This document shows, piece by piece, positions 27,139 through 49,062 of a stretch of 64,000 nt of DNA. The notes under the pieces are model-generated. The model was not told the origin of the DNA and searched no databases. It was given only the letters and a program-made list of their open reading frames with translations. A program made the translations under genes and the position numbers. The first letter of the stretch is position 1, and every line of letters begins with the position of its first letter. Source of the stretch: Leptasterias polaris (lineage: Eukaryota; Echinodermata; Asteroidea; Forcipulatida; Asteriidae); the NCBI GenBank assembly GCA_037783415.1, contig JAZGTN010000087.1:2232001-2296000 (forward strand), in the 5' to 3' direction.

Positions 27139-27170
27139 CACAGGTGGGCTACCCCAAATCTAGCCCTGGT

Positions 27171-27204
27171 AGGACGTCAGTCAGTGCCACTGCACTGACG
27201 TCCT
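27171..27204. repeat. Short GACGTC hairpin
   Basis: AGGACGTCAGTCAGTG pairs with CACTGCACTGACGTCCT, next to the longer inverted repeat. Confidence 0.7.
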
Positions 27205-27698
27205 GGGTATAAAGATCCTGTACAATGCGAACAAAATTTTGAGTACAATTTTTTCCTATTTTTACCTAATTTGAGAAGCTGAAACTCCATTCATTTATTC
27301 TTGGTGCCCTTTACTACTCTTTTGATGAGTTCAAAAACAAACAAATACATCCATGAATGACATTATTTCCGAAAATAAGTCCGAGTTGTGCACTGGCGAT
27401 GTGACTCCGTCGTGTTGCCGCCCGGAAGAAAAAACGTTGAGTGTTACGGGTTAGACAGCGCCCTATTTTGTGGACTTGGCTCCATGTCAGTTGAGGTTGT
27501 CACATCGCCAGTGCACAAGTCGGATTTATTTTCAGAAATAATGTCATCCAAGGATAAAATTTACAATTCTGAATAGAGCAGGCGTAAAGTTCAGGAGACA
27601 AGGAATATGTGAGTAAAGTTTCAGCTTCCTCAAAAAGGTAAAAATATATAAAAAAATTGTTATACATTTTTCGCAACGGCAGAGGACCTTTATACCCT
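27204..27698. mobile_element. 495-bp foldback MITE
   Basis: Ends are GGGTATAAAGATCC and GGACCTTTATACCC. Inner mirrored words include TGCACTGGCGATGTGAC against GTCACATCGCCAGTGCA, and AAGCTGAAACT against its mirror. The loop is about 100 bp. No open frame of note. Confidence 0.78.
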
Positions 27699-27827
27699 GA
27701 ACTCCGTCGCGTTGTATATGTTTTAATAAGTTTTGATGCTTTTAAACTGATTGTCTATAAAACCTTTCTTGTTTTAAGAAACATTTGTGTAATCTAGGAC
27801 GTTAAATTTGAGCCTAATTGAAAAAAC

Positions 27828-28109
27828 TATTCCTTTACATAGCACCATGTAATGGTTTACAAGGTGCTGCAGCCAATCAAACCAGGAACACCGGGGCGAA
27901 CCCCTTCTCTTTTCGATAAGTGCACTGGGTTCTTTTACGTGCATTACACAACACATGGCTTTACGTCCCATCCGAAGGACGAAGCAATAATGGTCAAGTG
28001 TCTTGCTTAAGGACACAAGTGCCACGACCGGGACTCGAACCCACACTCTGCTGAACAGAAACATCAGAGCTTGAGTCCGGTGCTCTTATCCGCTCGGCCA
28101 CGACACGCC
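27828..28109 (-). mobile_element. SINE family B copy at the palindrome border
   Basis: On the minus strand it starts GGCGTGTCGTGGCCGAGCGG with box B GGGTTCGAGTCCC. The body is shortened and has lost the TATATAACTGCG end. Its tRNA-like head touches the outer end of the giant inverted repeat at 28109. Confidence 0.8.
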
Positions 28110-31100
28110 AAATAAATCCTCTGACAACGTCTGAATCCGTGTTCTGAATGTATTGCCACAAACGAAATCGCGGCCGTGAAGATGCAATTTTAACACCCCG
28201 AGTTAAAAACAAACTAATGCATTTTGTTTTTCTAGGTACTCTACATACAAAAATACAAATGATTTTTTACTTATTGTCATCATTCCCAATGCAACTCTGT
28301 CTGGCTACGGCGCCAATGCTTTCATAATCATATCAGTCTCCCCGATTGTCAATTGAACGCCCGTACACTAACTTAGTTTGAACATCCTATCCGTGCCCTA
28401 ACTTTCCAATGCATTGTTCCAAACCAAGACCCCAACGAAACCACCCAACCGAACACCGCAAAATTCTCACCGGTAATTTTTGGCTGGTGGCACTGTGTAC
28501 GGCAAAGCTAATGTTCCTTCTATATTCTAGCTCTAGACCTATTCATTCATTCATTCATTCCACAACGAGTACCACCGAATCAGACACTCAAAAATATCCA
28601 ACAAAAACACATGTGAAATTACGGCATTGCCCATTGCCTACAGTCCACGTTCTATAATCTAATGTCATAATACACTTATGGCCAACCCGGCTCACCAGCC
28701 CCCTGACCATCTCCAAATCCAATCCATCATCTAAAACGATACCACGGCAAGTAGAATACACCGCGGCCGCTGTACACCGAAAACACTCTGGTGGAATCAA
28801 CGCTGTAACTTCCCGCCAAGTCAAAAATAGGACTGATCAGTAGCATGCCATTTCCTAGTGAACTATCCTACAGCGTGTGCCGCCAACTCAATTATTTTTT
28901 AAGTCCGAACTTTATATGCGTCTCCTGTTCCCGAGTCACTGCTCCTCTTAATCAAGATGGCGTTCAATGGTCTATACCTAAAGCGTATACCTTCCACTCA
29001 CATCATTTGATCATTTGTAAATCCGCACCAGTGTCCCCATGTTTCCTAAACTAAAACTATACATAAAACTTGATCCGTCCACTCAAAAATTATTTACTAA
29101 GAATAAAGCACTTGTTTCCCCATACCATAGTATCCTGTGTAAAGTATTTCACTCGCAACAAAGTATAAAACAAGGATTTCCCTATGCCATAGTATCCTGC
29201 GTGCCCCGTCGCAAATTATTTACTGAGTATAAAGCACTGAAATCCCATGCCATAGTATCTAATGTAAAGTATGAATAAAAGGTTCATCAAGTCCAAAATA
29301 CATATGTTCCTGGGGGGGACCCAAGTGGGTGTCGTGGAAGGGCAGCGGTCTCCGAAGACAGAGGTCCCCGGTTCGAGCCGCAGTGGTGACAGGGTTAGAG
29401 GCCGCAAGAGAGCCACTCACCGCGCAGTGAGACGCGCCGCCCATTCGAGGATGGGAAGGAAACTTAAAACTTAAAACGAACCTCTGCACTTTTTTTCAAT
29501 AATTTTTTTTTTTTTTTTTAAAAGGTTCTTTAAAACGCCTCGAATTTATATGTAACGGGATTCGATCCCGGGACCTTTCGGTCCAGAGTCCGGAGCCCTT
29601 CCACTGGACCACTGCTCCTCTTACTTAAGATGTGTTTGAGTTTAATTTTAAACCTTAGAATGAACAACTTTAAATCAATTATGTACAAAAAGAACACCCG
29701 GGGTTCGAACCCAGTACCTTTCGGTCCAGAGTCTGGAGCCCTTCCACTGGGCCACTGCTCATCTTACTTAATTTGCGTTCGAGTTTAATTTTAAACCTTG
29801 GAATGAACAACTTTAAATCAATTATGTACAAAAAGAACACCCGGGGTTCGAACCCAGTACCTTTCGGTCCAGAGTCTGGAGCCCTTCCACTGGGCCACTG
29901 CTCATCTTACTTAATTTGCGTTCGAGTTTAATTTTAAACCTTGGAATGAACAACTTTAAATCAATTATGTACAAAAAGAACACCCGGGGTTCGAACCCAG
30001 TACCTTTGGGTTCAGAGTCCGGAGCCCTTCCACTGGGCCACTGGTCCTCTTACTTAATTTGTGTTCGAGTTTAATTTTAAACCTTGGAATGAACAACTTT
30101 AAATCAATTATGTACAAAAAGAACGCCCGGGGTTCGAACCCAGTACCTTTGGGTTCAGAGTCCGGAGCCCTTCCACTGGGCCACTGGTCCTCTTACTTAA
30201 TTTGCGTTCGAGTTTAATTTTAAACCTTGGAATGAACAACTTTAAATCAATTATGTACCAAAAAAACACCCGGGGTTCGAACCCAGTACCTTTGGGTTCA
30301 GAGTCCGGAGCCCTTCCACTGGGCCACTGGTCCTCTTACTTAAATGTACGATCGAGTTTAATTTATAACCTAAGAACATCAAATCAACAGCGGCTAAAAA
30401 GTAAACTACATAGCGTAGTTGCGCTCCTCATCTCGCAAATTATTTACCAAGTATAAAGCAAGGATTTCTGTATGCCATAGTAAACCCAATGGTTTTACCT
30501 CGTACAAAAAAGAACAGCCTGGAATTGAACTCGGGACCTTAGCGTTCAGAGTTCGGAGCCTTTCCACTGGACCACTGCTCCTCTTATAAATTAAACTGCA
30601 TTCGAGTTTAGTTTTATATCAAATCAACAACGGCCAAGCAGAAAACGTAAGTATGAACAACTTTAAATCAACAACGTGTAAAAAGAACACCCGAGTTTCG
30701 AACCCCGTACCTTTGGGTTCAGAGTCCGAAGCCCTTCCGCTGAGTCACTGCTCCTCTTAATCAAGATGGCGTTCAAGTGTGATTTAACACCAGAACATCA
30801 AATCAACAACGGCTAAAAGGTAAACTGGTGTATAGCGTGTTCACATTATTTGCGTGTAAGGCAATGATACCATAGCGCCCTGCAACTCCATTGGTTTTAC
30901 CACGTACAAAAAGAACACCCGGGGTTCGAACCCAGTAACTTTGGGTTCAGAGTCCGGAGCCCTTCCACTGGGCCACTGCTCCTATTACTTAATTTGCGTT
31001 CGAGTTGAATTTTAAACCTTGGAATAAACTTTAAATCAATTATGTACAAAAAGAACACCTAGGTATCGAACCCGGTACCGTTTGGTTCAGGGTCCGGAGC

Positions 31101-32248
31101 CCTTCCACTGGGCCACTGGTCCTCTTACTTAAATGTACGATCGAGTTTAATTTAGAACCCGAACATCAAATCAACAGCGGCTAAAAAGTAAACTACATAG
31201 CGTAGTTGCGCTCCTCATCTCGCAAATTATTTACCAAGTATAAAGCAAGGATTTCTATATGCCATAGTACCCTGCGTAAACCCCATGGTTTTACCTCGTA
31301 CAAAAAGAACACCCTGGAATTGAACTCGGGACCTTAGCGTTCAGAGTTCGGAGCCTTTCCACTGGGCCACTGCTCCTCTTATAAATTAAACCGCATTCGA
31401 GTTTAGTTTAATATCAAATCAACAACGGCCATGCAGAAAACGTAAGTATGAACAACTTTAAATCAACAACGTGTAAAAAGAACACCCGAGTTTCGAACCC
31501 CGTACCTTTGGGTTCAGAGTCCGAAGCCCTTCCGCTGAGTCACTGCTCCTCTTAATCAAGATGGCGTTCAAGTGTGATTTAACCCCAGAACATCAAATCA
31601 ACAACGGCTAAAAGGTAAACTGGTGTATAGCGTGTGCAAATTATTTGCGTGTAAGGCAATGATTTCTTTTTACCATAGCGCCCTGCAACTCCATTGGTTT
31701 TACCACGTTCAAAAAGAACACCTGGGAATTGAACCCAGTACCTTTGGGTTCAGAGTCCGCAGCTCTACCACCAGGCCACTGCCCTTCTACACAAGTTCCC
31801 GTTGAGTTTAAACATAAACCTTAGACTTAACAGAACTAATTAAACAAGGTACAAAAGAAGTTTGTGTGTAAATTTAACCTCAGAAAGGACAGATTGATTT
31901 ATTTGAATTTCAAAAAGAATTCTGCGGATTCGAACCTGGGACCCATCGTTTAAGAAACCAAAGCCTTTTCACTAGGCTGTTGCGTTTGCCATCTCGTTGC
32001 CTTTGATAATAATATATATACCTTAGAATAAACTACATTACCGAAGGGAACAGGATTAAACATATATGATTCAGGGATTCGAACCTGGTACCACGGGGTT
32101 TGGAGTCCCGATCCTTGTCCACAAGGCTAGTGGTCCTCTGCCTAATTTGCATTTTTATTTGATGTAGAATCTCAGAATGAGTTACCACCGTAGAGAATTA
32201 TAAACTGATACGATGAAAGGAATGGGACTTGATACGACGAAGTTTGCC
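28110..32248 (-). repeat. Left arm of giant inverted repeat with tRNA-like units
   Basis: This 4.1-kb arm is the reverse complement of 33103-36903, nearly identical over long stretches. On the minus strand it carries about 15 tRNA-like units with box B motifs near 29557, 29700, 29843, 29986, 30129, 30272, 30522, 30693, 30919, 31066, 31317, 31492, 31721, 31931 and 32082. One further unit in the opposite orientation is near 29318-29390. The outer 1.1 kb (28.11-29.28 kb) has no tRNA-like units. An 83-codon frame in that part is mirrored in the other arm but its upstream frame is not kept. Confidence 0.88.
29633..30350 (-). repeat. 143-bp tandem tRNA-like cassette, 5 copies (left arm)
   Basis: Box B starts at 29700, 29843, 29986, 30129 and 30272, exactly 143 bp apart. 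Each unit is about 71 nt of tRNA-like sequence plus about 72 nt of AT-rich spacer ending in a CGCAAATTAAGTAAGA-type word. The other arm has only three copies, which accounts for most of the arm-length difference. Confidence 0.92.
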
Positions 32249-33102
32249 CCATACTAAATTTAGTTTTTCTGTGTGAAAATAAATATTGAGTATATACGAT
32301 ATTTGCCATACGGTCAGACTTGAGCCCATTTTGAAGTCATTTGTAAACATTCATCTAAGATAGGCTTTAGTAAATGTCTGTAAGTGAATAATGAAACGGA
32401 TAATAATAAAAATTACTGGATATAACGGGGGGAACTTCAGCAAACGATACCGAATAACAGAGTATCACTAGGGAACGATATTGTGTTGTGAATGAGTACA
32501 AAAGCATGCCAGCCAAACGTAATGTGTAAAATTGAACAAACGTACATACAGCTACTAGAAACATACATAGCGCAAACATTGCTACAGTCGGTGCTTTCAG
32601 GCATGGTCTAAGAAACCAGAACAAACGAGTATACATTAGTCTTGCCTGAACAGTTTTCTGAAGATAAACGCCTCGACAAAAATGCTCTAATTATCACCCA
32701 CAGCCGACACAGAGACAGCCAGGTTCAAGCGTGCTTGGAGACCATTTTGAAAACACGTGTACGCGGCATATTGCCGGGTACCCTGAATATATAAAGCATT
32801 GATTGACTGATAAGAGACAAACTAAAGGGTATCAGACTACTCGTTCTCTTATGGCACGGTTTAAAAACTCTGATATAACGGTGCCTCCAAAAAATATTAT
32901 ATTATATTATTTTTAGTCCGAACCCCTTGTCCAAAGCACCTGTAACTTGGAGACTATCTTTTACATATAACGGACTTTCTTTGGTTACATTTTGAGGCAA
33001 ATCGGAGGGAAAAGTTTTCGAGGCTGAAAAAATGGAAAGACTACCTATGGCTCCTAACAATTATTCCCGTGCATTTTATTCAACCAAAACACCCGTGCAT
33101 GC
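32249..33102. other. Central spacer of the giant inverted repeat
   Basis: About 850 bp of unpaired sequence without a recognisable gene. The stretch at about 32640-32720 (GTCTTGCCTGAACAGTT.TCTGAAG) also occurs at 39663, so the spacer holds at least one dispersed repeat. An 89-codon minus-strand frame at 32367-32636 has no recognised features. Confidence 0.7.
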
Positions 33103-34367
33103 CACAACTTCGTCGTATCAAGTCCCATTCCTTTCATCGTATCAGTTTATAATTCTCTACGGTGGTAACTCATTCTGAGATTCTACATCAAATAAAAATG
33201 CAAATTAGGCAGAGGACCACTAGCCTTGTGGACAAGGATCGGGACTCCAAACCCCGTGGTACCAGGTTCGAATCCCTGAATCATATATTTTTAATCCTGT
33301 TCCCTTCGGTAATGTAGTTTATTCTAAGGTATATATATTATTACCAAAGGCAACGAGATGGCAAACGCAACAGCCTAGTGGAAAGGCTTTGGTTTCTTAA
33401 ACGATGGGTCCCAGGTTCGAATCCGCAGAATTCTTTTTGAAATTCAAATAAATCAATCTGTCCTTTCTGAGGTAAAATTTACACACAAACTTCTTTTGTA
33501 CCTTGTTTAATTAGTTTTGTTAAGTCTAAGGTTTATGTTTAAACTCAACGGGAACTTGTGTAGAAGGACAGTGGCTTGGTGGTAGAGCTGCGGACTCTGA
33601 ACCCAAAGGTACTGGGTTCAATTCCCAGGTGTTCTTTTTGAACGTGGTAAAACCAATGGAGTTGCAGGGCGCTATGGTAAAAAGAAATCATTGCCTTACA
33701 CGCAAATAATTTGCACACGCTATACACCAGTTTACCTTTTAGCCGTTGTTGATTTGATGTTCTGGTGTTAAATCACACTTGAACGCCATCTTGATTAAGA
33801 GGAGCAGTGACTCAGCGGAAGGGCTTCGGACTCTGAACCCAAATGTACGGGGTTCGAAACTCGGGTGTTCTTTTTACACGTTGTTGATTTAAAGTTGTTC
33901 ATACTTACGTTTTCTGCATGGCCGTTGTTGATTTGATATTAAACTAAACTCGAATGCGGTTTAATTTATAAGAGGAGCAGTGGCCCAGTGGAAAGGCTCT
34001 GAACTCTGAACGCTAAGGTCCCGAGTTCAATTCCAGGGTGTTCTTTTTGTACGAGGTAAAACCATGGGGTTTACGCAGGGTACTATGGCATATAGAAATC
34101 CTTGCTTTATACTTGGTAAATAATTTGCGAGATGAGGAGCGCAACTACGCTATGTAGTTTACTTTTTAGCCGCTGTTGATTTGATGTTCGGGTTCTAAAT
34201 TAAACTCGATCGTACATTTAAGTAAGAGGACCAGTGGCCCAGTGGAAGGGCTCCGGACCCTGAACCAAACGGTACCGGGTTCGATACCTAGGTGTTCTTT
34301 TGGTACATAATTGATTTAAAGTTTATTCCAAGGTTTAAAATTAAACTCGAACGCAAATTAAGTAATA

Positions 34368-34438
34368 GGAGCAGTGGCCCAGTGGAAGGGCTCCGGACTC
34401 TGAACCCAAAGGTACTGGGTTCGAACCCCGGGTGTTCT
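34368..34438 (+). repeat. Best-preserved tRNA-like unit (tRNA-Gln(CUG)-like, anticodon stem broken)
   Basis: The 71 nt fit a cloverleaf: acceptor GGAGCAG with GTGTTCT (6 of 7 pairs counting G-U), D stem GCCC/GGGC around AGTGGAA, anticodon loop CTCTGAA (CUG at positions 34-36), 5-nt variable loop, T stem CTGGG/CCCGG around TTCGAAC, then TTTTT. Box A TGGCCCAGTGG and box B GGTTCGAAC are intact. The anticodon stem CCGGA/CCCAA pairs at only two positions, so this is a tRNA-derived repeat rather than a working tRNA gene. Confidence 0.75.
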
Positions 34439-35012
34439 TTTTGTACGTGGTAAAACCAATGGAGTTGCAGGGCGCTATGGTATTATTGCCTTACACGCAA
34501 ATAATGTGCACACGCTATACACCAGTTTACCTTTTAGCCGTTGTTGATTTGATGTTCTGGGGTTAAATCACACTTGAACGCCATCTTGATTAAGAGGAGC
34601 AGTGACTCAGCGGAAGGGCTTCGGACTCTGAACCCAAAGGTACGGGGTTCGAAACTCGGGTGTTCTTTTTACACGTTGTTGATTTAAAGTTGTTCATACT
34701 TACGTTTTCTGCTTGGCCGTTGTTGATTTGATATTAAACTAAACTCGAATGCAGTTTAATTTATAAGAGGAGCAGTGGTCCAGTGGAAAGGCTCCGAACT
34801 CTGAACGCTAAGGTCCCGAGTTCAATTCCAGGCTGTTCTTTTTTGTACGAGGTAAAACCATTGGGTTTACTATGGCATACAGAAATCCTTGCTTTATACT
34901 TGGTAAATAATTTGCGAGATGAGGAGCGCAACTACGCTATGTAGTTTACTTTTTAGCCGCTGTTGATTTGATGTTCTTAGGTTATAAATTAAACTCGATC
35001 GTACATTTAAGT

Positions 35013-35440
35013 AAGAGGACCAGTGGCCCAGTGGAAGGGCTCCGGACTCTGAACCCAAAGGTACTGGGTTCGAACCCCGGGTGTTCTTTTTGTACATAAT
35101 TGATTTAAAGTTGTTCATTCCAAGGTTTAAAATTAAACCCGAACGCAAATTAAGTAAGATGAGCAGTGGCCCAGTGGAAGGGCTCCGGACTCTGAACCCA
35201 AAGGTACTGGGTTCGAACCCCGGGTGTTCTTTTTGTACATAATTGATTTAAAGTTGTTCATTCCAAGGTTTAAAATTAAACTCGAACGCAAATTAAGTAA
35301 GATGAGCAGTGGCCCAGTGGAAGGGCTCCGGACTCTGAACCCAAAGGTACTGGGTTCGAACCCCGGGTGTTCTTTTTGTACATAATTGATTTAAAGTTGT
35401 TCATTCTAAGGTTTAAAATTAAACTCAAACACATCTTAAG
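35013..35440 (+). repeat. 143-bp tandem tRNA-like cassette, 3 copies (right arm)
   Basis: GGGTTCG positions at 35066, 35209 and 35352 give the same 143-bp period as the left arm. Copies are almost identical to one another. Confidence 0.92.
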
Positions 35441-36903
35441 TAAGAGGAGCAGTGGCCCAGTGGAAGGGCTCCAGACTCTGGACCGAAAGGTCCCGGGATC
35501 GAATCCCGTTACATATAAATTCGAGGCGTTTTAAAGAACCTTTTTTTATTAAAAAAAAAAATTATTGTAAAAAAGTGCAGAGGTTCGTTTTAAGTTTTAA
35601 GTTTCCTTCCCATCCTCGAATGGGCGGCGCGTCTCACTGCGCGGTGAGTGGCTCTCTTGCGGCCTCTAACCATGTCACCACTGGGGCTCGAACCGGGGAC
35701 CTCTGTCTTCGGAGACCGCTGCCCTTCCACGACACCCACTTGGGTCCCCCCCAGGAACATATGTATTTTGGACTTGATGAACCTTTTATTCATACTTTAC
35801 ATTAGATACTATGGCATGGGATTTCAGTGCTTTATACTTAGTAAATAATTTGCGACGGGGCACGCAGGATACTATGGCATAGGGAAATCCTTGTTTTATA
35901 CTTAGTTGCGAGTGAAATACTTTACACAGGATACTATGGTATGGGGAAACAAGTGCTTTATTCTTAGTAAATAATTTTTGAGTGGACGGATCAAGTTTTA
36001 TGTAGAGACCATCAGTTCAGGATACATGGGGGACACTGGTGCGGATTTACACATGATTTGAGTGGAAGGTATACGCTTTAGGTATAGACCATTAGTTTAC
36101 TCGGGAACAGGAGACGCATATAAAATTCGGACTTAAAAAATAATTGAGTTGGAGGCACACGCTGTAGGATAGTTCACTAGGAAATGGCATGCTACTGATC
36201 AGTCCTATTTTTGACTTGGCGGGAAGTTACAGCGTTGATTCCACCAGAGTGTTTTCGGTGGACAGCGGGATGTATTCTACTTGCCGTGGTATCGTTTTAG
36301 ATGATGGATTGGATTTGGAGATGGTCAGGGGGCTGGTGAGCCGGGTTGGCCATAAGTGTATTATGACATTAGATTATAGAACGTGGACTGTAGGCAATGG
36401 GCAATGCCGTAATTTCACATGTGTTTTTGTTGGATATTTTTGAGTGTCTGATTCGGTGGTACTCGTTGTGGAATGAATGAATGAATAGGTCTAGAGCTGG
36501 ATTATAGAAGGAACATTAGCTTCGCCGTACACAGTGCAAGAGCCAGCAGCCAAAAATTACCGGTGAGAATTTTGCGGTGTTCGGTTGAGTGATTTCGTTG
36601 GGGTCTTGGTTTGGAGCAATGCATTGGAAAGTTCGGGCACGGATAGGATGTTCAAACTAAGTTAGTGTACGGGCGTTTAATTGACTTTCGGGAAAACTGA
36701 TATGATTATGAAAACATAGGCCTAAGTAAAAAATCATTTGTATTTTTGTACGTAGAGTACCTAGAAAAGAAGAAAAAATGCATTAGTTTGTTTTTAACTC
36801 GGGGTGTTAAAATTGCATCTTCACGGCCGCGATTTCGTTTGTTGAATTACATTCAGAACACGCGTCACGGATTCAGACGTTATCGTGAGAGGATTTATTT
36901 CTA

Positions 36904-38520
36904 AAAGAAATTCAGATTTTTGATTCTTTTATTTTGGGGGTGGAATGATATACTATTTCAAACGTATATTTTGTTTAAATTGTTGGTACTATTTAATTTC
37001 ATGATTTGCTAATTTATAATTTCAGTGTCTTTTGGAGAAGAACAACCCACTACATTTTCAAAGAAAAGAGGTGCGGTAAAAATTCAAAAACATTGATAAT
37101 TTCTTTTAGATCAATAAACCAGGTCTACAACAAATGGACAAAAGTCATGAAGAACCATTAAGTAAATTAATACAAAAACAATGAATACAACAATAAGTGA
37201 AGAACTTTGATATTTTAAAAAGTGTATTGCTGGTTTTGGGGGTTTTGGTTTTTTGGTGGTTTTTTTAAAAATCTGACAAAGGCCCCTAAAAATATTTTGA
37301 ATAGATTTGAAAAACACACAGAATTGAATATCAAACAAAAATAAAATGACACAGAATCTCGTTCTCTTTATTCAGTTTTTTTCCTACCTCAATGAGATGC
37401 AAGTAAAAATACAGGTAAATATGCTTTCAAATTGATACCCATATGCACCCGACCCCATCATTAAAACATTACAGCATTTTTAAAAAGACAAACAATTTGG
37501 TAATTTCAGGATGTAGGTGCCAGACTAACCCATTTTGGAAATGAGGCCATCATCAATGTTTGAAATTACGTTTACGTTGATTACTCAGCAGGATCCTTAA
37601 GTGAGGACGTAAAGCCAAGTGTGCTTGATTTTTGGTGGAGTGCAGATCGGACACAAAGTTCTGACTTAAACAAAAGCTAGAGTTCAGTTAACAACAGCTG
37701 GGCCTACATGTAATTCCTCCCGCTTTTTCCATTTTAGAAATATGCGGTAGGTCCCCTACAGATTGATCTCAAACACAACCATCCCCATCCATGTATGGAG
37801 GTAGCAATCATCATAGTTTTCGGATAACTACGAGTGATAAAAGATTGTTTAACCCAAAATGCTCTTCTAAAGAAAAGCAGATTGTTTGTTGTGACAGCAA
37901 GTCAACATTATGCCGGTACAATACAATAGGCCCAAACGTTATACTTCAGCTGTTTCCGGCCAATGTATTTTAAAGTGCCGTTTTGTAAGTGCACGTAGTG
38001 CCACAAATTAACTGTTTTACGACTAATTCGGCTTCTACACGGGTTCCACGAGAGCTATTCGTGTGCTACACTTTAAGCTCGTATAAACTACACAATAATG
38101 CTTACCTCTAAAGCTCCATAGAGATATTAAATCATATAAAATGCGCATCACCAACGGTGCCATTTGACAGTAATCCAGCACAACTGGACGCCATTTTGAA
38201 TACTCACGTCACGGAATCAACAGCCGTCGAGCACCCTGACTCCTACAGGTTGTCTCTGTTATCAAGCGATAATCGGGTACCTTATATTATCTTTGGCTGG
38301 TTCCAACCACGTGTGTCTTCCCCAGACTACAGGGGCATGCAACTGGCTCTCGCAAAATCTCGCGGTGACCAACTTGAACGATGATAGGCCGATATTCTTT
38401 CCACGACTGGTTTCAAGTCTTGAACACCTTTTTTTTTTTAATAGATGTTGAATTTTGCATACATCTAGTAAATCGTTGCGGTACCCCACCCGATGCTCCA
38501 AAACAGCATTTGAACCACAT
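36904..38520. other. Non-coding, nothing recognised
   Basis: AT-rich sequence after the palindrome. Short frames at 37111-37338 and 38157-38384 have no family features or good splice borders. Confidence 0.5.
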
Positions 38521-38526
38521 CCATGT

Positions 38527-38610
38527 ACTGGACTTGCTCGGTGGTCTAGTGGTAAGCAAACCAAACAGACACTGTAATGGTGGTGGGTTCGGACCCCACC
38601 TAGTGATATT
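38527..38610 (+). repeat. tRNA-Glu-like pseudo-unit with long T-run
   Basis: Box A TGGTCTAGTGG and a perfect T stem GTGGG/CCCAC around TTCGGAC are followed by TTTTTTTTTT. The acceptor arm pairs poorly and the anticodon region does not form a stem, so it is a pseudogene or a SINE head. Confidence 0.5.
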
Positions 38611-39054
38611 TTTTTTTTCACAGAGCAATTGAAAACATTTACTTTCTTTTGTAAAAAAAATAAACTCAAACTCTTCATTAAGGAAAATTGCTTCATAGAA
38701 TCCCAGTTAAACTTACTTATTGAACTGATTAATTTTAAGATCAACTATTTTAAGGTCCTAGATCGAACTTGCTCCTGGTTTAATAATGCTTTGGGAGAAC
38801 TGCCTGATTTTGGTGTGAGGTAGCGCATACATTTAATAGAAATTCAACCCACAAAACAAACATCGAGTACACAACATTTTCACAGACATCCTGGTGTTTC
38901 TTTTTTTTTTTTTACATCACTTAGAATTTTTGAAAATGGCTAAGATTTGATAAGCTGGAAACAGACTGCATTAAATTTAGACATTTAAAAACTTTCTCAT
39001 AAAAATGTACCAAGTGGCGAATGAAACGCACACTGGATATCTTAACATCAATTG

Positions 39055-39442
39055 GGGCCCAATTTAATGGCACTCCCTACTAGGGAATTATGTGCAAACA
39101 TCCTGTTACAACCTATAGAAATAATTTTGGGTTGAACAAAAACAAATTGCCAAGAGCCGGACATGAACCTGTGACCTCTTTGTTCTGGGGTGCCAGTCAG
39201 ATATTGACAAAATAGGGAGACCGCCAACAAGGTAGCTCAGTTGGTAGAGCGCTGGCACATTTATCTGGAGGTTGCAGGTTCAAATCCATCTCTAGTGAAT
39301 TTATTTTTGTTCAACCTTTAATTATAAAAAATGTACCTATATAGTCAGTTTCCCTTGCAGTTTATTACTTAAACTCATAGAAAATGCATTTCACAGGGCA
39401 GCTCAAGCACAGATTTGTAAGCAGTGCCATGAAATGGGGCCC
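39055..39442. mobile_element. MITE of the GGGCCCAATTTCAT family with tRNA-like insert
   Basis: Ends are GGGGCCCAATTTAATGGCAC and GGGCCCCATTTCATGGCACT. Inside are two tRNA-like fragments in opposite orientations (about 39125-39185 minus, 39230-39303 plus), the second with GCTCAGTTGGTAGAGC and GGTTCAAATCC, both next to a GTTCAACC-type tail word. Confidence 0.65.
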
Positions 39443-39719
39443 AGGTAGTTTATCAAAATTTAATTTTTCAAATTTGTGAGTTAAAATGGTATTCACAATT
39501 TTAATATTCTGGAATTTTTGATAATGCTATTGCGAGAATCGATTGCATAGCAAGTCTTATATTTATGTTATTTCCATTAATGTAGGGATAAACAAATTCA
39601 TCAGTGCCCTGAAGGGTCTTAGAGACTTACTATAAAACCAAAAAAAATAAGTATACATATTTAGTCTTGCCTGAACAGTTCTCTGAAGTCTAAAACCACG
39701 AAAGCAATGCTGTAATTAT

Positions 39720-40330
39720 TGTCCACGGAGACAGACAACTGAACATATACTCAGTAATCACCCCAAATATTACCCAAACTGATGTTTTATTGGTCATGTT
39801 CTCTTAAACTAAACAAATACTCATTAATTACCTCAACCCAAACTGATGTAACATTGGCCAAGTTCTTCTTAACTGAACATGTAATCAGGCAACTTCAATA
39901 ATGCAATTTTGGGGAAACCTTTTTTTTTTTTTTTTTTTTTAAGAAAATTAAAATAAACACACTCAGTATTTTTCTCAATTTTAACTCATTCTGCTGTTTT
40001 ATTGGTCATATTGTCTTTAAAATATGTAATTATAATCAATTTTCAATAAGTATACAAAACTGGACATATTTATATACTCAGCAGTATTGATTCAAGTGAC
40101 CCAAACTGATGTCTTTTGGTCACATTCTCTCCAGTTGAACATATACTCATTAACTCAAATATCAACCAAACTGAAATATTACTAGTCATGTTATCCTTGA
40201 CTGAACATATACTCAGTAATTGCCTCAAATATGACCCAAACATATTTATTATTGAGTCAGGTTCTCTAAAGTGAACCTACACTCAGCAATTTCCTCAAAT
40301 TAAACCAGATTGGCAACTCAAACCCCAATA
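39720..40330. repeat. Degenerate tandem repeat with CTGAACATATACTCA units
   Basis: At least six diverged copies of a roughly 70-130 bp block with CTGAACATATACTCAGTAAT, CCCAAACTGATGT and TTGGTCATGTTCTC words. A 22-nt T-run at 39920 interrupts it. Confidence 0.65.
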
Positions 40331-41078
40331 TACATGTAAAACATTTGATGCTCTTATTAAATCTTGGGTGTGATCCCTAGCTACTCAGCAGCTAACAGTT
40401 GTATGGCTTCTGACTGTCACCCCCCCCCCCCCCACCCCCCTATCCCCGAACAAAAACATAGACAAAATTAAATAGGGCTAGATAAATCAGGTAGTAGAGC
40501 GCCGGCACGTTAAACTGGTACAAATCCCGCTCATGTAAATTTTTCTTTGTTCAACCGCAAACTAATCATCACGGCACTTGTGTGTAAAATCATGAAGGTA
40601 GACACAAAACAAGCAGGGCTGATGGAGACAAATAAGGGTCAAGTAAATTGAAAAGCTACATGTAATTGAGTTTCAATTTCTGGGAAGTTTGGATGGTTTC
40701 AGGATTCACAAGCCCCAATATACCAGGTAGAAATGGTGTAAGGCACTATCATCATCCAATGAACCTAATATGATCTCCTTTTTTAACACATTGGAGAGAA
40801 AAATAGCTTTGGACAACAACCTGTACAAATTTGATAAGTGGACTGCTCTTAAAAATGACCCTTTTAAAATAAGATACCAGAATACAGTATCTGGATTGTC
40901 TGTTTTTCCCTCTCTATTTTTCCTTGGTATGTAGTTTGTACATGTATGTTGTATTGTTTTGTGTTATCTTGAGCATTGCCAAAAAAAATAAAAACCCCAA
41001 AACAAACAAAAAAACAAGTGTACATTTGATTTCAATAACATACATACAAAATTGAGTACATAGAAGTGCAATTGATCA
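40331..41078. other. Non-coding with a tRNA-like fragment and poly-C run
   Basis: Poly-C at 40421-40438. A degenerate tRNA-like piece lies at 40490-40555 (GTAGAGCGCCGGCAC) with the TTTTTCTTTGTTCAACC tail seen at 39300 and 16190. Nothing else supportable. Confidence 0.5.
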
Positions 41079-41332
41079 GGGGCCCAATTTCATAGAGCTG
41101 CTTAAGCACAAAAAGTAGCTAAGCACAACAAAATTATGCTTGTATATTTGGTGTGCGGTAACACCAATCTACATGCTGGGTAGTTTATGTTCTTTTGAGA
41201 ACTTGTCTTGCTGTTACCAGAATAAAAACACTATGTCAAATGTACAATGTGTGACTGGTATCCTGCTTTTTGCTTAACTGATAATTGCTTAGCATAATTT
41301 TCTGCTTAAGCAGCTCTATGAAATTGGCGCCT
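41079..41332. mobile_element. MITE of the GGGCCCAATTTCAT family
   Basis: The TIR GGCCCAATTTCATAGAGCTG with CTTAAGCA extension pairs with GGCGCCAATTTCATAGAGCT at the right end; about 254 bp long with no coding capacity. Confidence 0.8.
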
Positions 41333-41584
41333 GCTCTTTGCCCTCTAATGGGAAGATGGTACAATAATCAATTTGCACATGTTAAATACGTTAATTACAT
41401 AAAGCTGTTTGTATAAATATTTACAAGCTTGAATACAATATGCAAAAATAAACATGGTACCACACTCCTTCTGTACGAAAAAACTACATTTTAAGATTTT
41501 ACATGTTGAATATTTTATACAAAAGTGTGGTATTTGTACAATCATTTGAATTGCAGGCAGGTCAAAATTCAGGTCAGAGGTCAA

Positions 41585-42598: not shown

Positions 42599-43456
42599 CT
42601 ACTGATCAGAGTCTTTGGCGAGAAGGAGAACAACTTCAGTCACAGGCCTCAAGAACAGCTTCGGTTCTCCGCTTCGGATGACTTTGACTTCAATTTTCCT
42701 GACTTTCCCGTCATCACTTGGAAAGGTCTTGTTGATCATCCCAAGAGGCCAGCCATTTCTCTTGGCTTGAGAATCTTTCATGAGGACTACGTCTCCTTCT
42801 CGCAAGTTTGGTTTCTCAGATGTCCACTTAGTGCGTGTCTGAAGACAGTTGAGGTACTCCTGCCTCCACCTTTTCCAGAACATGTCAGCTAATCTCTGTA
42901 CACGTTGCCACTGACATCTGAAGAGATCCTTATCATCAAACTCGCAAGGGGAGACAGAAGGTATACCAACCTTCTGTGTAAGGAGTGTCGCTGGTGTCAG
43001 AATGGAAGGGTGTTCAGGATCTGTAGAGACTGGGGTAAGCGGTCTGGAATTTATGATCGCAGTCACCTCTGCCATGAGAGTTGTCAACACTTCATGAGTT
43101 AGTATGCCTGGTCCAAGCTGAAGTAGCATGGCATCGAGAATGCGGCGTGTGATGCCAATCATCCTTTCCCAGCTGCCGCCCATGTGCGAGGCGTGAGGAG
43201 GGTTGAACTGCCACTCACATCTGTTATCAGCAAGGATATTCTCAATCTGCTCCTTCTGACGTCCTGAGGAGTTGATGCCAAGCTCACTACAGGCTCCTAC
43301 AAAGTTAGTCCCGCAATCAGACCTCAACAGCTTTGCAGGTCCTCTCAATGCGAAGAAGCGTCTCAGTGCGTTCACGAAGCTAGAGGTGTCCATATAGACT
43401 CGATCACTTCGATGTGAACAGCACGGGCGGCCATACATGTAAAAATCACAGCCCAT
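42599..43456 (-). pseudogene. BEL/Pao integrase, C-terminal part (out of frame with pol)
   Basis: The 285-codon frame contains the second aspartate of the integrase core (SDCGTNFVG), the catalytic glutamate region PPHASHMGGSWERMIG and the DUF5641-like end with RPLTP and NLREGDVVLM. It overlaps the end of the long pol frame. The two encode overlapping parts of one original protein, separated by what looks like a 2-nt insertion in a TATAT context near 43390. Confidence 0.9.
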
Positions 43457-46400
43457 CGCTTGCTGTTGGCTTGTCCTCCTCTTGTTTTTCGGGCTGTCAC
43501 TGTCCAGGGGCCGAAGACATCTAGGCCTACATAGGTGAAGGGTGGACTTGTGCTAAGGCGGTCAGCAGGCAAGTCTGCCATTATCTGCTCTTGTAGCTTG
43601 CCTCGCAGTCTTCGACAGGTTACACAGTGGTAGATCAAACTGCTGATGACTCGCTTACCACCAAGGACCCAGAAACCGGCTGCTCTTATGGCACCTTCAG
43701 TGAAGTGTCTGCCCTGATGCCGGACTACTTCATGGTAGTGTCTGATGAGAAGCGTAGTGACATAGCATTTCCCGGGGATTACCACTGGGTGTGTCTCACC
43801 AGTAGACAGCTTGGCTTTCTCAAGTCGACCTCCAACCCTGAGAAGACCGTCTTTGTCGACAAAGGGGTGTAGCTTCTGAAGCGGGCTGGACCGAGGAATG
43901 GGTTGGCCACTTTCAAGACGTCTGAGCTCGTCTGCATAGGCTGTTGTCTGAACAGCACGAAGAATTGCCATCTTTGCTCGAGTCAGTTGGTCTGGGCTTA
44001 AGTGCTCCTTATATTGGTGCCATCCTCGACAAGGGCTACCTCTATCTACTTGCGAAAAGGAGTGAGCGAGGTGGGTGAGTCTCGAAATGGCTTTCTGAAG
44101 CGACCTCCAACTTGAGAAGTGTTTGAAGCGTCCACTGGTCAGGCCTGCTTTAGAAACGTCTGTGGCACAGGTGGTAACTTGGGGTCTCACTTCTGTGTCG
44201 CTTTCGGGATCAACCAAGCTGAATGTCTCCTGACATAAGGAGGGGGAACTGTGTTTAGGATCACAGAGGAATGCGGGTCCACTTAGCCAAGTAGATGTAG
44301 ATAATCCAGATGCCGGTAGTGCCCTGGTAGCATGATCGGCAGGATTATGGTCCGTCGGGACGTAGTTCCACTGGCTTGCTTCAGAGGAGCGTTTGATGCG
44401 TTGCACTCGGTTCTGGATATAAACGTAGAAACGTCTGGTCTTGTTGTAGATATACCCAAGCACAACTTTGCTATCACTGAAGAACTTGACTCCATGCAGA
44501 TGTACATCTAATTCGTCTTGGACTGTCTCTGCGATTTCTACGGCCATAACAGCTGCTGCAAGTTCCAGACGAGGGATCGTGGGTTCAGGCTTAGGAGCAA
44601 GCTTTGCCTTGCCAAAGATAAATCCTACTTCGCAATGACCCTCACCATCTGTGATCTTGAGGTATGAGACAGCCGCAATCGCTTTTGTCGATGCATCACA
44701 GAAGACATACAACTCTCGCTTCTGGGCTTGAGAGAGTGGGAGAGTAGTGTACATTCTTGGGATCTTCAGTTCCTGGAGATCTTCGAGGGAGTTCTTCCAT
44801 CTCATCCATTCCTCATACTTTTCTTTAGGAAGAGGTGTGTCCCAGTCACAGGAGTCACGGTTAAGTTCTCTGAGGATGGAGCGACCCTGGATACTTACTG
44901 GAGCAGCATATCCGAGGGGATCGAATAGGCTGTTGATGGTAGACAATACCCCACGTCTTGTAAATGGCTTGTCACTGGTCGTCGCTTGGAAGGTGAATGT
45001 GTCTGCTGCCAAGTCCCACTGAAGGCCCAAGCTCCGCTGCGTTTGAAGGGAGTCTTGTCCAAGGTCAAGGTTCTGAAGCCCTTTGGCAAGGTCTTCTTTG
45101 GGAAAGGCTTTCATGACATCTGCACTGTTAGATGCGATTTTGTGAAGACGAAGATTGGACTGTGCTAGCATGTCTTGTGATTTCTCCAACACTTCAACAG
45201 CCTTGCTAACACTGGGAAATGACTGAAGCCCGTCATCGACGTAGAAATGTCGATCGACGAAGAGTCTTGCTTGGTCACCATACTCTTCATGTCCTTCTGC
45301 AGCCGTTCTCTTAAGTCCGTAGATCGCTACAGCTGGTGACGGACAGTTGCCAAATACATGGACCCTCATGCGATAGTCCAGGATGTCCCCATCAAGGTTG
45401 TTGTTGTCAAACCAAAGAAAGCGGAGGTAATCTCTGTGTTCTTTCTTGACGAGAAAACTATGGAACATCTGCTGGATATCGGCCATGATGGCTATTGGTT
45501 CACATCTGAAGCGAATGAGAATGCCTAGCAGACTGTTGTTGAGATCTGGACCTCTGAGTAGCACGTCGTTCAAGGATACATTGTCATGTTGAGAGCTGGA
45601 GTCGAACACGATTCTGATTTGGCCCGGTTTCTTCGGGTGATAAACACCAAAGCTAGGTAGGTACCAGCACTCTTGGCCTGGCTGGAGTGGTAAAGCTAAC
45701 TCTGCATGACCACTGATGAAAATCTTGTCCATGAATTCAATGTAGTGGTCTTTCATCTTGGGTTTCTTGAGGAGAGTGCGACGAAGAGACATAAGACGGT
45801 TCACTACTTGTTGTCTGTTGTTGGGTAGGCGTCGCCGGGGGGTTCGAAAGGGGAGAGGGCCCACCCAACTGTTGGAGTCATCTCTGACAAATTCTTCATT
45901 CATGATGGAGAGGAAAGTGTCGTCTTCAACTGACGGGGCCAACTTGTAATCTTCAGGAGACTCAAGGAAGACATCGGAGCCGATACTATCTAGCTGTTGT
46001 TTCTCATGTCTGGGAGTCTTGTTGACGAACGTTTCCTTCACATGGAATTTGCTCTCACATGGTGTTAAGTGGCTTGGACGGCCGTTATCAAGGATACTCG
46101 TTTTGAAGCTATTGACGGCTGGTTTGTGAGCTCCCCCGAGGCAGACATCTCCCACTATGACCCATCCCAAGTCCAATTGTTGGGCGTAGGGGGCAGTGTG
46201 GGGTCCGTTGCTCTGACTGCGAACCTTGTGGACCTGAATTACATCTCTGCCAAGTAGAAGAAGAATCTGTGCTGTTTGATCAAGCGGAGGGATCATGTGA
46301 GCGATGGCCTTTAGGTGAGGATGATGCCTTGCAGCCTCAGGAGTTGGAATTTCACATCGATTGTTTGGGATAGAGTCGCACTCGAGGAGTGGTGGCAAGG

Positions 46401-47226
46401 CCAGCTGGACTTCTTCATCTGCTGATTGTATTATGAAGCCGTTAGCTCTCCTTCCATAGGCGCTTGTTGTGCCAGAACATGTGCGGAGTTCGTAGGGAGA
46501 GGTGTCTCCGAGAATGTTAAACATGTCAAAGAAGGCAGACCTGGCAAGCGAGCGGTTGCTTTGATCATCCAACATCACATACACCTTCACCTTCATGTCG
46601 GGTTGGCCCTGCGGATACACGCTGGCTAGACATATCTTGGAACACGATTTTCCAGGTAGACCATCTCCACAAACGTCTGTGCAACTTGTGGAAGCTACTG
46701 ATGGCTCTTTACTGGGTTGCTCCCCGCCATGGTTTTCCACAGGCAAAGAATCGGTTCTTTTCCAAGGTGGCAGGCCATTATGAAGGGCGGATACATGACG
46801 ATCGCTGTCACACTCAGTGCAGCGAATTTGAACGTTGCAGTCATTTGCCATGTGAGAAGTAGAAGCACAGCACCTGTAGCAAATACCATGCTCTCTGAGA
46901 AAGGCCTTTCTTTCCTCCAATGGTTTTCCTCTGAAGCCACGGCACTTTCTCAAGGAGTGGGGTCTCTTGTGAATGGGGCACTGCTTGTCTGGGTCCATCA
47001 GTTCATTGGGGGCAAAGGTCGAAGTTTTCTCCACCTCAGTCTTGTGCACAGCGATTGAGGGCTTTGATATGAACGAACTTGGCATGGGCTTATGGCTTGT
47101 GGATGTCGTCATGCTGGACGAACGGAAAGCAAAGCTTGGATCAGTTCTCATGTCGGCCTGTGAGTACACAAAGTCAGCGAAGAAAGTAAATGGGGGGAAA
47201 GGAACATGATGCGTTTTCTTGTACAT
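43372..47226 (-). CDS. pol: BEL/Pao pol: zinc knuckle, protease, reverse transcriptase, RNase H, integrase N-part
   Basis: A 1284-codon frame. In order: CYRCC...H...C zinc knuckle near residue 115; protease-like VMLDDQSNRSLA near residue 220; reverse transcriptase with IRIVFDSSS, an IMADIQQMF block and catalytic YVDD at about residue 662 (45232-45243); RNase H FCDAST near 845; integrase zinc domain (HYHEVVRH...CVTC) and first core aspartate in YVGLDVFGPW. It ends abruptly within the integrase because of the frame break, with the remainder at 42599-43456. All catalytic motifs noted are present. Confidence 0.95.
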   Translation of the reverse strand: MYKKTHHVPFPPFTFFADFVYSQADMRTDPSFAFRSSSMTTSTSHKPMPSSFISKPSIAVHKTEVEKTSTFAPNELMDPDKQCPIHKRPHSLRKCRGFRGKPLEERKAFLREHGICYRCCASTSHMANDCNVQIRCTECDSDRHVSALHNGLPPWKRTDSLPVENHGGEQPSKEPSVASTSCTDVCGDGLPGKSCSKICLASVYPQGQPDMKVKVYVMLDDQSNRSLARSAFFDMFNILGDTSPYELRTCSGTTSAYGRRANGFIIQSADEEVQLALPPLLECDSIPNNRCEIPTPEAARHHPHLKAIAHMIPPLDQTAQILLLLGRDVIQVHKVRSQSNGPHTAPYAQQLDLGWVIVGDVCLGGAHKPAVNSFKTSILDNGRPSHLTPCESKFHVKETFVNKTPRHEKQQLDSIGSDVFLESPEDYKLAPSVEDDTFLSIMNEEFVRDDSNSWVGPLPFRTPRRRLPNNRQQVVNRLMSLRRTLLKKPKMKDHYIEFMDKIFISGHAELALPLQPGQECWYLPSFGVYHPKKPGQIRIVFDSSSQHDNVSLNDVLLRGPDLNNSLLGILIRFRCEPIAIMADIQQMFHSFLVKKEHRDYLRFLWFDNNNLDGDILDYRMRVHVFGNCPSPAVAIYGLKRTAAEGHEEYGDQARLFVDRHFYVDDGLQSFPSVSKAVEVLEKSQDMLAQSNLRLHKIASNSADVMKAFPKEDLAKGLQNLDLGQDSLQTQRSLGLQWDLAADTFTFQATTSDKPFTRRGVLSTINSLFDPLGYAAPVSIQGRSILRELNRDSCDWDTPLPKEKYEEWMRWKNSLEDLQELKIPRMYTTLPLSQAQKRELYVFCDASTKAIAAVSYLKITDGEGHCEVGFIFGKAKLAPKPEPTIPRLELAAAVMAVEIAETVQDELDVHLHGVKFFSDSKVVLGYIYNKTRRFYVYIQNRVQRIKRSSEASQWNYVPTDHNPADHATRALPASGLSTSTWLSGPAFLCDPKHSSPSLCQETFSLVDPESDTEVRPQVTTCATDVSKAGLTSGRFKHFSSWRSLQKAISRLTHLAHSFSQVDRGSPCRGWHQYKEHLSPDQLTRAKMAILRAVQTTAYADELRRLESGQPIPRSSPLQKLHPFVDKDGLLRVGGRLEKAKLSTGETHPVVIPGKCYVTTLLIRHYHEVVRHQGRHFTEGAIRAAGFWVLGGKRVISSLIYHCVTCRRLRGKLQEQIMADLPADRLSTSPPFTYVGLDVFGPWTVTARKTRGGQANSKRWAVIFTCMAARAVHIEVIESIWTPLAS

Positions 47227-48391
47227 CGAGCCCTGGATGAGTCAACCACTTTTCCTGTAGAAATTGAGGGAGCTTTTCAACAATCGGATTTATCCCTCTG
47301 GAAGTGTCCAAGTAGTTAAGTCCGGGTAGGTTGTCTTCAAGCTTTGCTGCTTTCACTTCTGTGAGAAGATCTGCAAGTTCCTGTAGTCTCGGGTAGTCTC
47401 TGTTCCCAATCTTAGGGAAGGTGTCCAGACGAGAAAAAAGTGACTCCTCTATTGCCTCAGGGGACCCATACATCTTGTCCAATCTTTGCCATACCTTAAT
47501 TAGGCCATCTGAAGGATTGTTTATGTGGACTGCCCTGATCCTCGTAGCATGCTGAAGTGACTCTCCGCCAAGCCACCTAGTAAGTAGATCGAGTTCTTCA
47601 CTTGCTTTTAGGTTTAATCCCTGGGTAACATTGCGATAACTGGCTCTCCATGACAAGTAGTTCTCTGGCCGATTATCAAAAACCTTGAGTCCGGCTGTGA
47701 GAAGGTCTCGACGAGCGAGGTGGACTGTGAGGTCAAAGACATCTGAATGGCTTTGCAAAAACGGGTTTGACCTCCCGTTGTCATGCCATCGTCTGTCTGA
47801 TAGGTCAGTGTATTGTGCAGTGTGTAGAAAGGGATTTAGCACACCAGCTTGCGGGGGCGGAGTATAGAAGTCGGGCGGATCCAAGTGGGGATGAGCAGAT
47901 GAAAGAGCTTGAGCTTCAACAGCAGTGCTTTGTGGGTGCAAGTGTTCATCAGGGCGCTCTTTAGGACTAATCTTAGTAGGCTGGTAATCGGTGTGGTTAT
48001 CATGATGGTCAAAATGTGCGTTTATGTATTCTTCTGTACGTTGCTCGGGTTGGACTGATAGGGCAAGATGACTGGTGATGCTTGCTCTATCCTCAGTTTC
48101 TTTGGCATTTACAGCTGCCTCCAGTGTTTTGGCAGCAGCCAATGCAGATTCAGCTTCACCTTCTTTCTGCATGGCGAACAGCATAGCGTCAATGCGTGCA
48201 CGTTCCACCTTCATCTCGATTTGACGCCTGGTGTAATCAGCTTTCGTGCGTGCGGCCTCTGCTTTAGCACGCGCCTCTACTGCAGCCAAGCTGATGTGTG
48301 ACCTGGTTGAACATCGTGAAGATGAGGATGATCCGGGTTTGTATTCTGAAAGTATCTCCCAGTTCTGAGAAACTCCTGGAGGAGATGACAT
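47174..48391 (-). CDS. gag: BEL/Pao gag
   Basis: A 405-codon frame starting MSSPPGVSQNWE. An alanine/arginine-rich coiled-coil-like segment (about residues 30-95) is followed by the DUF1759-type capsid region with FDNRPENYLSWRASY and LLTRWLGGESLQHA. In BEL elements gag and pol are usually one frame; here gag runs out of frame about 50 bp into the pol overlap, consistent with a single extra base near 47215. Confidence 0.92.
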   Translation of the reverse strand: MSSPPGVSQNWEILSEYKPGSSSSSRCSTRSHISLAAVEARAKAEAARTKADYTRRQIEMKVERARIDAMLFAMQKEGEAESALAAAKTLEAAVNAKETEDRASITSHLALSVQPEQRTEEYINAHFDHHDNHTDYQPTKISPKERPDEHLHPQSTAVEAQALSSAHPHLDPPDFYTPPPQAGVLNPFLHTAQYTDLSDRRWHDNGRSNPFLQSHSDVFDLTVHLARRDLLTAGLKVFDNRPENYLSWRASYRNVTQGLNLKASEELDLLTRWLGGESLQHATRIRAVHINNPSDGLIKVWQRLDKMYGSPEAIEESLFSRLDTFPKIGNRDYPRLQELADLLTEVKAAKLEDNLPGLNYLDTSRGINPIVEKLPQFLQEKWLTHPGLDVQENASCSFPPIYFLR

Positions 48392-48459
48392 TTTGAAGTA
48401 GTGTTGCAGGGAACCACCAGTTAATGAAGATGCTCTTGTTGAGAAGCTAATCTTTTCAC

Positions 48460-49062
48460 TCTTCTGACCTCACTAAGTCGAGTATGTGACGAAATTAGTC
48501 AGAGGTTAAACACTATTCCATGGAATACCAGTCATTTGCTTCTTTATTGGAACCAGTGTGAAACTGTAATAAACAAGAATAAAACATACATTTAGTTATA
48601 AAGCATAACGTGAAGGAAGCCTTAGAATATAAGTAGGCTGGCATAGAATAGGTAAAGTCACATAAAAGACCCTAAATCCATGCTAAAATACGAAACAAAA
48701 GAATTGCCCAGTTTCCGGACAAACGTTAAACGTGTAGTGCCTTCGCAATGCACACATGGTCAAAAAGTACATGTACAACGCACATGTAGCCGTTTTTGGC
48801 AACAACAGTTTTAAGGAACTAAACTAGCCTGAAAACCCAACAAATCGAGTGAGCTAGACAAGGAATGAACTATGATAATAAGACAGAATGTAAAACTTAC
48901 AGATTGTGCTTGATCCAAGGGAAAAAACAAGGATATTGGGGCTCAAAACGGCAGAATTATACGAAGGCTTTACAACGGGAAAATGATAGACGTGAGTAAA
49001 ATAATAATCTCTAGAGGGCGCTATATAAAAAGGCGAGAGGCCTAAGTTCTCGGGGCAAGACA
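48460..49062 (-). repeat. 5' LTR of the BEL/Pao element
   Basis: 603 bp, the same length as the other LTR, differing at an A/G (AATATAAGTAGG) and an A/T (GCCGTTTTTGG) position. No clear TGG-type primer binding site follows it directly; a TGGTGGTTCCCTGC word about 40 bp inside is a possible shifted site. Confidence 0.95.

Follow-up and report, generated by a model that had tools for sequence, protein, structure and literature searches.

The 64,000-nt stretch of Leptasterias polaris DNA analysed here (the window; contig JAZGTN010000087.1, positions 2,232,001 to 2,296,000, or G000:C87:2232001-2296000 in the genome searched) contains a large inverted repeat whose arms carry arrays of transfer RNA (tRNA)-like units. 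In our judgement it probably belongs, as a truncated and mosaic copy, to a palindrome family with many members, whose arms are kept alike by gene conversion and which has multiplied chiefly through segmental duplication or ectopic recombination; the tRNA-like units would be passengers.

Arms and extent of the inverted repeat

The arm pair was first detected as 29842-32244 and 33106-35508 (2403 nt, 99%) together with outer blocks, and a second comparison matched 28110-30084 with 34979-36900. Taken whole, the left arm (28110-32244, 4135 nt, minus strand) and its partner, the right arm (33106-36900, 3795 nt, plus strand), are 98.04% identical over 3772 aligned columns, with 386 gap columns. Per 200 columns, the inner part of the alignment has 0-5 mismatches, and the outer part reaches as many as 12. 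The arms enclose a spacer of 861 bp (32245-33105, plus strand), so that the architecture proposed in a preliminary description of this DNA, mirrored arms of 4.1 and 3.8 kb around a 0.85-kb spacer, was recovered. The length of the arms and the recurrence of the same order in other copies exclude a chance origin.

To place the repeat among its relatives, the genome (629.7 Mb, 334 contigs) was searched with the 143-bp unit of the arrays, which gave at least 275 matches among the best 40 of 1035 candidates. From these matches we picked 10 loci, 20 kb each, in which units on the minus strand precede units on the plus strand. Together with the window copy they make 11 copies, named A (the window copy), B, C and D (contig C87), E133, F128, G75a, H75b and I75c (C75), J30 (C30) and K72.

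Against these copies the positions 28110 and 36903, which had been taken as the limits of the element, do not hold. The left limit is the edge of a short interspersed nuclear element (SINE) with a tRNA-Leu(CAA)-like head (27818-28109, minus strand), at which the outer side of the left arm is truncated; the same SINE occupies the same position in both I75c arms and in the left arm of J30. The SINE sequences have an echinoderm-like look. The right limit lies inside a longer homology to other copies that continues to 39606. This unpaired outer continuation of the right arm (36901-39606, plus strand) recurs in both arms of copy C, and other copies have it in one arm or in both. The spacer, too, was rejected as a distinct central domain, its sequence being homologous to inner-arm sequence elsewhere. 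As it matches inner-arm sequence in both orientations at seven other loci, one side has been lost in the window copy. Judged from these alignments, the window copy is a shortened one, cut at the tRNA-Leu SINE on the left and at 39606 on the right.

Three further stretches near the arms resemble parts of the palindromes. A diverged (~77%), 97-bp copy of the central sequence lies at 39630-39726, 24 bp past the end of the right-arm homology, and may be the scar of a recombination with another palindrome. Left of the SINE, 27160-27717 holds a plus-orientation copy of a ~0.57-kb insert found in the G75a, I75c and J30 arms; it does not belong to an intact left arm. Finally, 40862-41382 (~520 bp) matches the centre of H75b at ~91%, and in part that of G75a.

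A family of palindromes with a common centre

Self-comparison showed all 10 chosen loci to be palindromic, and in all 11 copies the units (E < 1e-3) of the minus block come before those of the plus block. The block is flanked by a reversed unit on one or both sides in seven copies (A, B, C, G75a, H75b, I75c, J30) and by none in D, E133, F128 and K72. Because the 10 loci had been chosen for the minus/plus order, a second look was taken with an outer-arm query free of units. It gave 40 main matches (the best 40 of 97 candidates scored), and 22 of these combine into 11 pairs on the same contig. All 11 pairs are arranged left-minus/right-plus, six of them at new loci (C182, C209, C5 and three on C75). 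The remaining 18 matches, which include arms of known palindromes, are unpaired among the matches listed.

A query with the spacer, that is the centre of the palindrome, found at least 43 strong matches (at least 679 bits) at no fewer than 35 loci across 19 contigs (the best 40 of 289 candidates scored). The centre is present in all 11 copies compared, which argues that the palindrome is ancestral, older than its copies. At 7 of the 35 loci listed it occurs in both orientations, always plus then minus, and in E133 and F128 the arms meet across a mere 159 bp. Elsewhere the centre forms a tandem array with a period of ~356 bp (G000:C43:684201-690074, C98:370689-373319, C72:1900043-1904562).

The arms reach well beyond those seen in the window. 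A piece lying yet farther out in copy B recurs, mirrored, at the two outer ends of B, C, D and the C182 locus, one C182 end holding only its inner half, and these outermost mirrored matches are about 20-26 kb apart. The fuller family members would thus measure about 20-26 kb as inverted repeats, with arms of about 10 kb or more, and show no obvious gene of their own. The piece L031:1540-2100 is partly a dispersed repeat, its first 288 bp also occurring alone elsewhere. At G000:C70:11952121-11959688 (7.5 kb) the 143-bp unit was found in plus orientation only, among the matches listed; this locus is possibly a one-sided array.

Two aspects of the survey count against this picture. The C182 locus (at 1.82 Mb) has two centre matches in the same orientation, and the 10 comparison copies were selected for having both arms visible in the search with the 143-bp unit.

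Probable conversion between the arms

Among the 11 copies, the nearest sequence of 17 of the 22 arms is the partner arm, and partners are 96-100% alike in the outer-arm stretch. On the tree, copy labels change 10 times, the minimum for 11 labels, and left/right labels 11 times. Some length changes likewise affect the two arms of a copy together. Both H75b arms have a 2.7-kb deletion and both G75a arms one of 0.3 kb, neither of which is seen in any of the other 10 copies; these are copy-private changes in paired arms. Both I75c arms carry the SINE, and both D arms carry an insert of 1.8-2.1 kb. In J30 the SINE is in the left arm, and its site has been lost from the right arm. As the palindrome appears to be ancestral, yet most arms are nearest to their partners and some insertions and deletions are found in both arms, the best reading is arm-to-arm gene conversion, which would be incomplete. 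These data lend good support to the earlier suggestion that conversion maintains the array in pairs.

A number of observations do not fit complete homogenisation and have to be set against this reading. The partner is not the nearest sequence for five of the 22 arms (one of A, both of B, both of F128), and the arms of B and those of F128 were not resolved as sisters. The I75c SINE and the D insert also occur in single arms elsewhere in the family and are thus not private. Several changes are confined to one arm: the SINE of the window to the left arm, this insert in copy B to the right arm, and a 0.96-kb deletion of D to the right arm. In G75a the left arm stops earlier than the right, at 38460.

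The window copy as a mosaic

The 11 copies fall into two subfamilies, one of C75 and C30, the other of C87, C128, C133 and C72. In the outer-arm tree, the left arm of the window stands at the base of the C75/C30 subfamily and the right arm at the base of the other. A clade of the two window arms was rejected by the approximately unbiased (AU) test (p-AU 0.00017), which, to its disadvantage, was run after the tree had been inspected. In the inner-arm tree both window arms group together among the C87 copies (93/88), although the bootstrap of this tree had not settled, which also weakens the case. Of 51 diagnostic sites, 29 show C75 and 21 show C87 states in the left arm, against 10 and 41 in the right arm; within the left arm, the inner part is C87-like and the outer part has mostly C75 states. 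At 36319-36463 the two window arms are identical (0/144 mismatches) and both C75-like. By its trees and diagnostic sites, then, the window copy is a mosaic of the two subfamilies, and this pattern is the trace that patchy conversion between unlike arms would be expected to leave. The tree is unrooted and may fit a recombinant of two palindromes as well as the retention of an old difference between the arms.

Mode of spread

We propose the following scheme. From a small centre, each arm would run through inner sequence, a tandem array of the 143-bp class and a reversed SINE into several kilobases without units. Gene conversion within the palindrome would keep the arms alike, unequal exchange would alter the lengths of the arrays, and copies would spread mainly within a chromosome, by segmental duplication or ectopic recombination. 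Clustering is consistent with the last step: C75 holds 8 loci, with 0.42 expected, and C87 holds 4, with 0.18 expected, among the matches listed, the test presuming uniform placement and the loci being the best 40 of 289 candidates, which lessens its force. Of the initial proposal that the repeat is an inverted segmental duplication, the part concerning duplication fits the clustering on two contigs, whereas inversion anew at each locus does not agree with a centre common to all 11 copies.

A very large foldback-type DNA transposon, its arms being terminal inverted repeats (TIRs) with tandem repeats and its transposase supplied in trans, would differ from this scheme in the mode of spread only; we regard it as unlikely. 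Foldback transposons, to which FB, Galileo, Tetris and the sea urchin element TU belong, resemble the present family, as far as their published accounts were available, in their long inverted arms, tandem repeats within the arms, variable middle and rearranged copies. The long arms with internal tandem repeats and the small, variable centre are found here as well, and the dispersal over at least 19 contigs would suit a transposon. In the part of its description consulted, Tetris is portrayed in similar terms, with long TIRs carrying tandem repeats, a non-coding middle and no autonomous copy; its TIRs are given there as at most 1,735 bp (PMC4079207), whereas the arms here would be about 10 kb or more. 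The palindromes thus differ from foldback elements in arms that are several-fold longer and in a tandem unit that is a tRNA-like RNA polymerase III (Pol III) cassette. The strong clustering on two contigs also speaks against a transposon.

As to the ends, no common terminus or target-site duplication was seen, the outer ends of the copies lying beyond the sequence compared. The outermost 256 bp of the left flank of copy B matched no other palindrome copy among the best 40 of 3045 candidates; an adjoining high-copy repeat dominates this search, so that no end is implied, and other copies extend further out than this flank. Size and mode of spread accordingly rest on partial data, with arms that run past the compared sequence, which is a further reservation about the scheme. 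No obvious transposase was found in the two longest stop-to-stop frames (at least 140 aa) of each of the 11 copies, a sample that leaves the wider genome aside; this would be consistent with mobilisation in trans. Three frames from the copies were run against Pfam, and one, in the arm insert of copy D, gave a weak GIY-YIG match below the curated cut-off, suggestive of a Penelope-like element.

Nature of the tRNA-like units

With a profile built from one core and a cut-off of E < 1e-3, the left arm was found to have 15 units, all on the minus strand (29556-32132), and the right arm 13, all on the plus strand (33218-35508). The corresponding arrays span 29547-32136 (minus strand) and 33214-35517 (plus strand, basic period 143 bp), and both would be transcribed outward if active. 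Each arm has in addition one reversed unit near its outer part. That of the left arm (29332-29382, plus strand) has an E-value of 0.0038, above the cut-off, and by eye is a SINE head with the body and A/T-rich tail facing the centre. That of the right arm (35673-35744, minus strand; profile match 35681-35732, E 0.0006) has a SINE-like head as in the left arm. The count of 14-16 units per arm in the preliminary description, mostly outward and with one reversed in each, stands with these figures.

The 143-bp-class cassette consists of a 72-nt core, a decayed tRNA-Gln(CTG)-like sequence, with a T-run and a linker of ~70 bp; by eye it has neither the body nor the A-tail of a SINE. The Rfam tRNA model reached its gathering score at five sites of the window, all inside the inverted repeat and all weak (29-35 bits). 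No unit of the window qualifies as an intact cloverleaf, the maximum being 34.8 bits. In the four Rfam alignments shown, which cover the full model length, the acceptor, D and T stems are mostly paired and the anticodon stem is mostly broken. Better-kept units exist in other copies, with a top Rfam score of 44.9 bits (L050:8972-9043; 12 of 20 loci run). ARAGORN, with bacterial settings, made no call on any array unit of the window; at 20 other loci with 296 units it made 21 calls, 11 for Gln(CTG), 7 for Arg and 3 for Leu, all three Leu calls being the tRNA-Leu SINE. Folding of eight units was not clearly better than that of shuffled sequence (z -0.99 to +1.13).

Of the 325 units in the 11 copies, 303 have at least four T just past the core, while four A occur in the same interval in 44, and A-box-like and B-box-like motifs are found in 257 and 251, respectively. 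Head-to-tail units with tRNA-related Pol III boxes and a 143-bp period identify the arrays as a tRNA-derived tandem repeat.

It is rather improbable that the arrays are a working Pol III locus, with units transcribed as tRNAs, as tRNA-like RNAs or as boundary elements and maintained by selection, although the T-runs would be in keeping with it. Within arms, cores are on average more alike than linkers in all six arms examined; in the right arm of the window the likeness is 0.775 for the core, 0.647 for the upstream and 0.531 for the downstream linker (78 pairs), and in G75a and K72 only 64-83% of pairs have a core more similar than the linkers. This comparison favours core conservation, since the units were found by their cores. 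The orthologous-unit comparison between copies comprised 21 arms and 20 distinct rows, one K72 arm having been dropped by the length filter. In the three innermost units, nucleotide diversity is nominally slightly lower in cores than in flanks (0.029 and 0.039), and variable sites are equally frequent in both (35/216 in cores, 63/379 in flanks; Fisher p = 1). A human tRNA tandem repeat is regarded as a candidate boundary element in the portion of the source available (PMC4041453). Against such a role stand the equal variability of cores and flanks, the broken anticodon stem in the four best alignments, the weak scores, and the ARAGORN tally of none in the window arrays and 18 Gln or Arg calls for 296 units elsewhere. 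A functional tRNA cluster was rejected as the first choice because of the weak scores, the broken anticodon stem and a core variability equal to that of the flanks. The equal variability between copies makes the units look like Pol III cassettes that were amplified while still recognisable and are now drifting. Most likely, they form a tRNA-derived tandem repeat that the palindrome carries as a passenger, and are not functioning tRNA genes.

Because the units point outward in both arms, single-unit Pol III transcripts of the two arms would be the same in sequence and not complementary. Double-stranded RNA would therefore be expected only from read-through across the centre.

Other tRNA-like matches occur in the window outside the arrays. 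A weak one (26.6 bits, below the gathering score) lies at 39226-39298 (plus strand), in the outer right arm beyond the array. On the minus strand, tRNA-Leu(CAA)- and tRNA-Ser-like calls were made at 5733-5823, 10453-10543 and 28019-28109. The stretches around these three are mutually related and look like SINE heads rather than tRNA genes.

Alternative origins

A new element class can be imagined, a chromosome-clustered, self-homogenising palindrome whose outward Pol III cassettes act in cis; we give this a slim chance. The cassettes might block replication forks or nucleate breaks near the centre, which could lead to arm conversion and cause entire palindromes to be copied locally. In that case, propagation would depend on the centre together with the paired arrays, in place of terminal repeats and a transposase.

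A separate inverted duplication of a single-arm precursor at each locus, by fold-back priming or template switching, would explain why the arms of one copy are so alike (96-100% in the outer-arm stretch). It is very improbable, given a centre common to all 11 copies and insertions and deletions that are in part one-armed. An assembly artefact, such as a hairpin-joined read, is scarcely credible even though palindromes are classic sites of misassembly, because the window arms differ by ~2% and by the SINE and the same order recurs at independent loci on several contigs.

Neighbourhood in the window

Upstream of the palindrome, pieces of an eIF5B-like gene are found on the plus strand, with the Pfam domains IF-2 and GTP_EFTU_D4 above and GTP_EFTU_D2 below the cut-off and motifs up to ~20.0 kb. 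Just upstream of the first piece seen, 1059-3698 (plus strand) encodes a reverse transcriptase frame of 879 aa that resembles those of long interspersed nuclear elements. Downstream, 42599-48469 (minus strand) contains BEL/Pao-type retroelement frames, one of them with a Peptidase_A17 domain. It is followed by a large minisatellite (50341-54443; 48-bp unit, ~84 copies) with several minus-strand open frames of 110-177 aa.

Relation to known repeats and significance

Tandem repeats derived from tRNA are known from newts (PolIII/TAN), Xenopus (OAX), Rana (Rana/polIII) and squamates (SINE-derived satellites), as outlined in the accessible portion of PMC10702118. Like the arrays described here, they are tandem, tRNA-related Pol III sequences, with units of 67 to ~360 nt where the consulted part gives sizes (PMC10702118). 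The main text of that article returned no matches for 'inverted' or 'palindrom' (PMC10702118), and the present arrays differ from these repeats in being mirrored pairs within long palindromes. The human tRNA tandem repeat at 1q23.3 also has many tRNA units in an array; as presented in the section consulted, it has a 7.3-kb unit with tRNA genes whose number varies between people (PMC4041453), whereas here the units are decayed and the arrays palindromic. Paired tRNA-like arrays in palindromes were not met in the open-licence literature among the top-ranked results, which is weak evidence of novelty.

In the excerpts available, sex-chromosome palindromes are, like those described here, large inverted repeats with arms kept alike by gene conversion (PMC3403216, PMC7023750). 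The present family differs from them in having at least 35 related loci on 19 contigs and no gene seen in the compared arms. To our knowledge, the concerted evolution of palindrome arms has mostly been discussed for sex chromosomes, on few palindromes with genes. Here, dozens of related palindromes are found in one animal genome, and insertions and deletions mark conversion events. The rate, tract length and bias of conversion could thus become countable from these palindromes. The family also brings together, within a single structure, two known kinds of repeat, the tRNA-derived tandem kind and the foldback-like kind.

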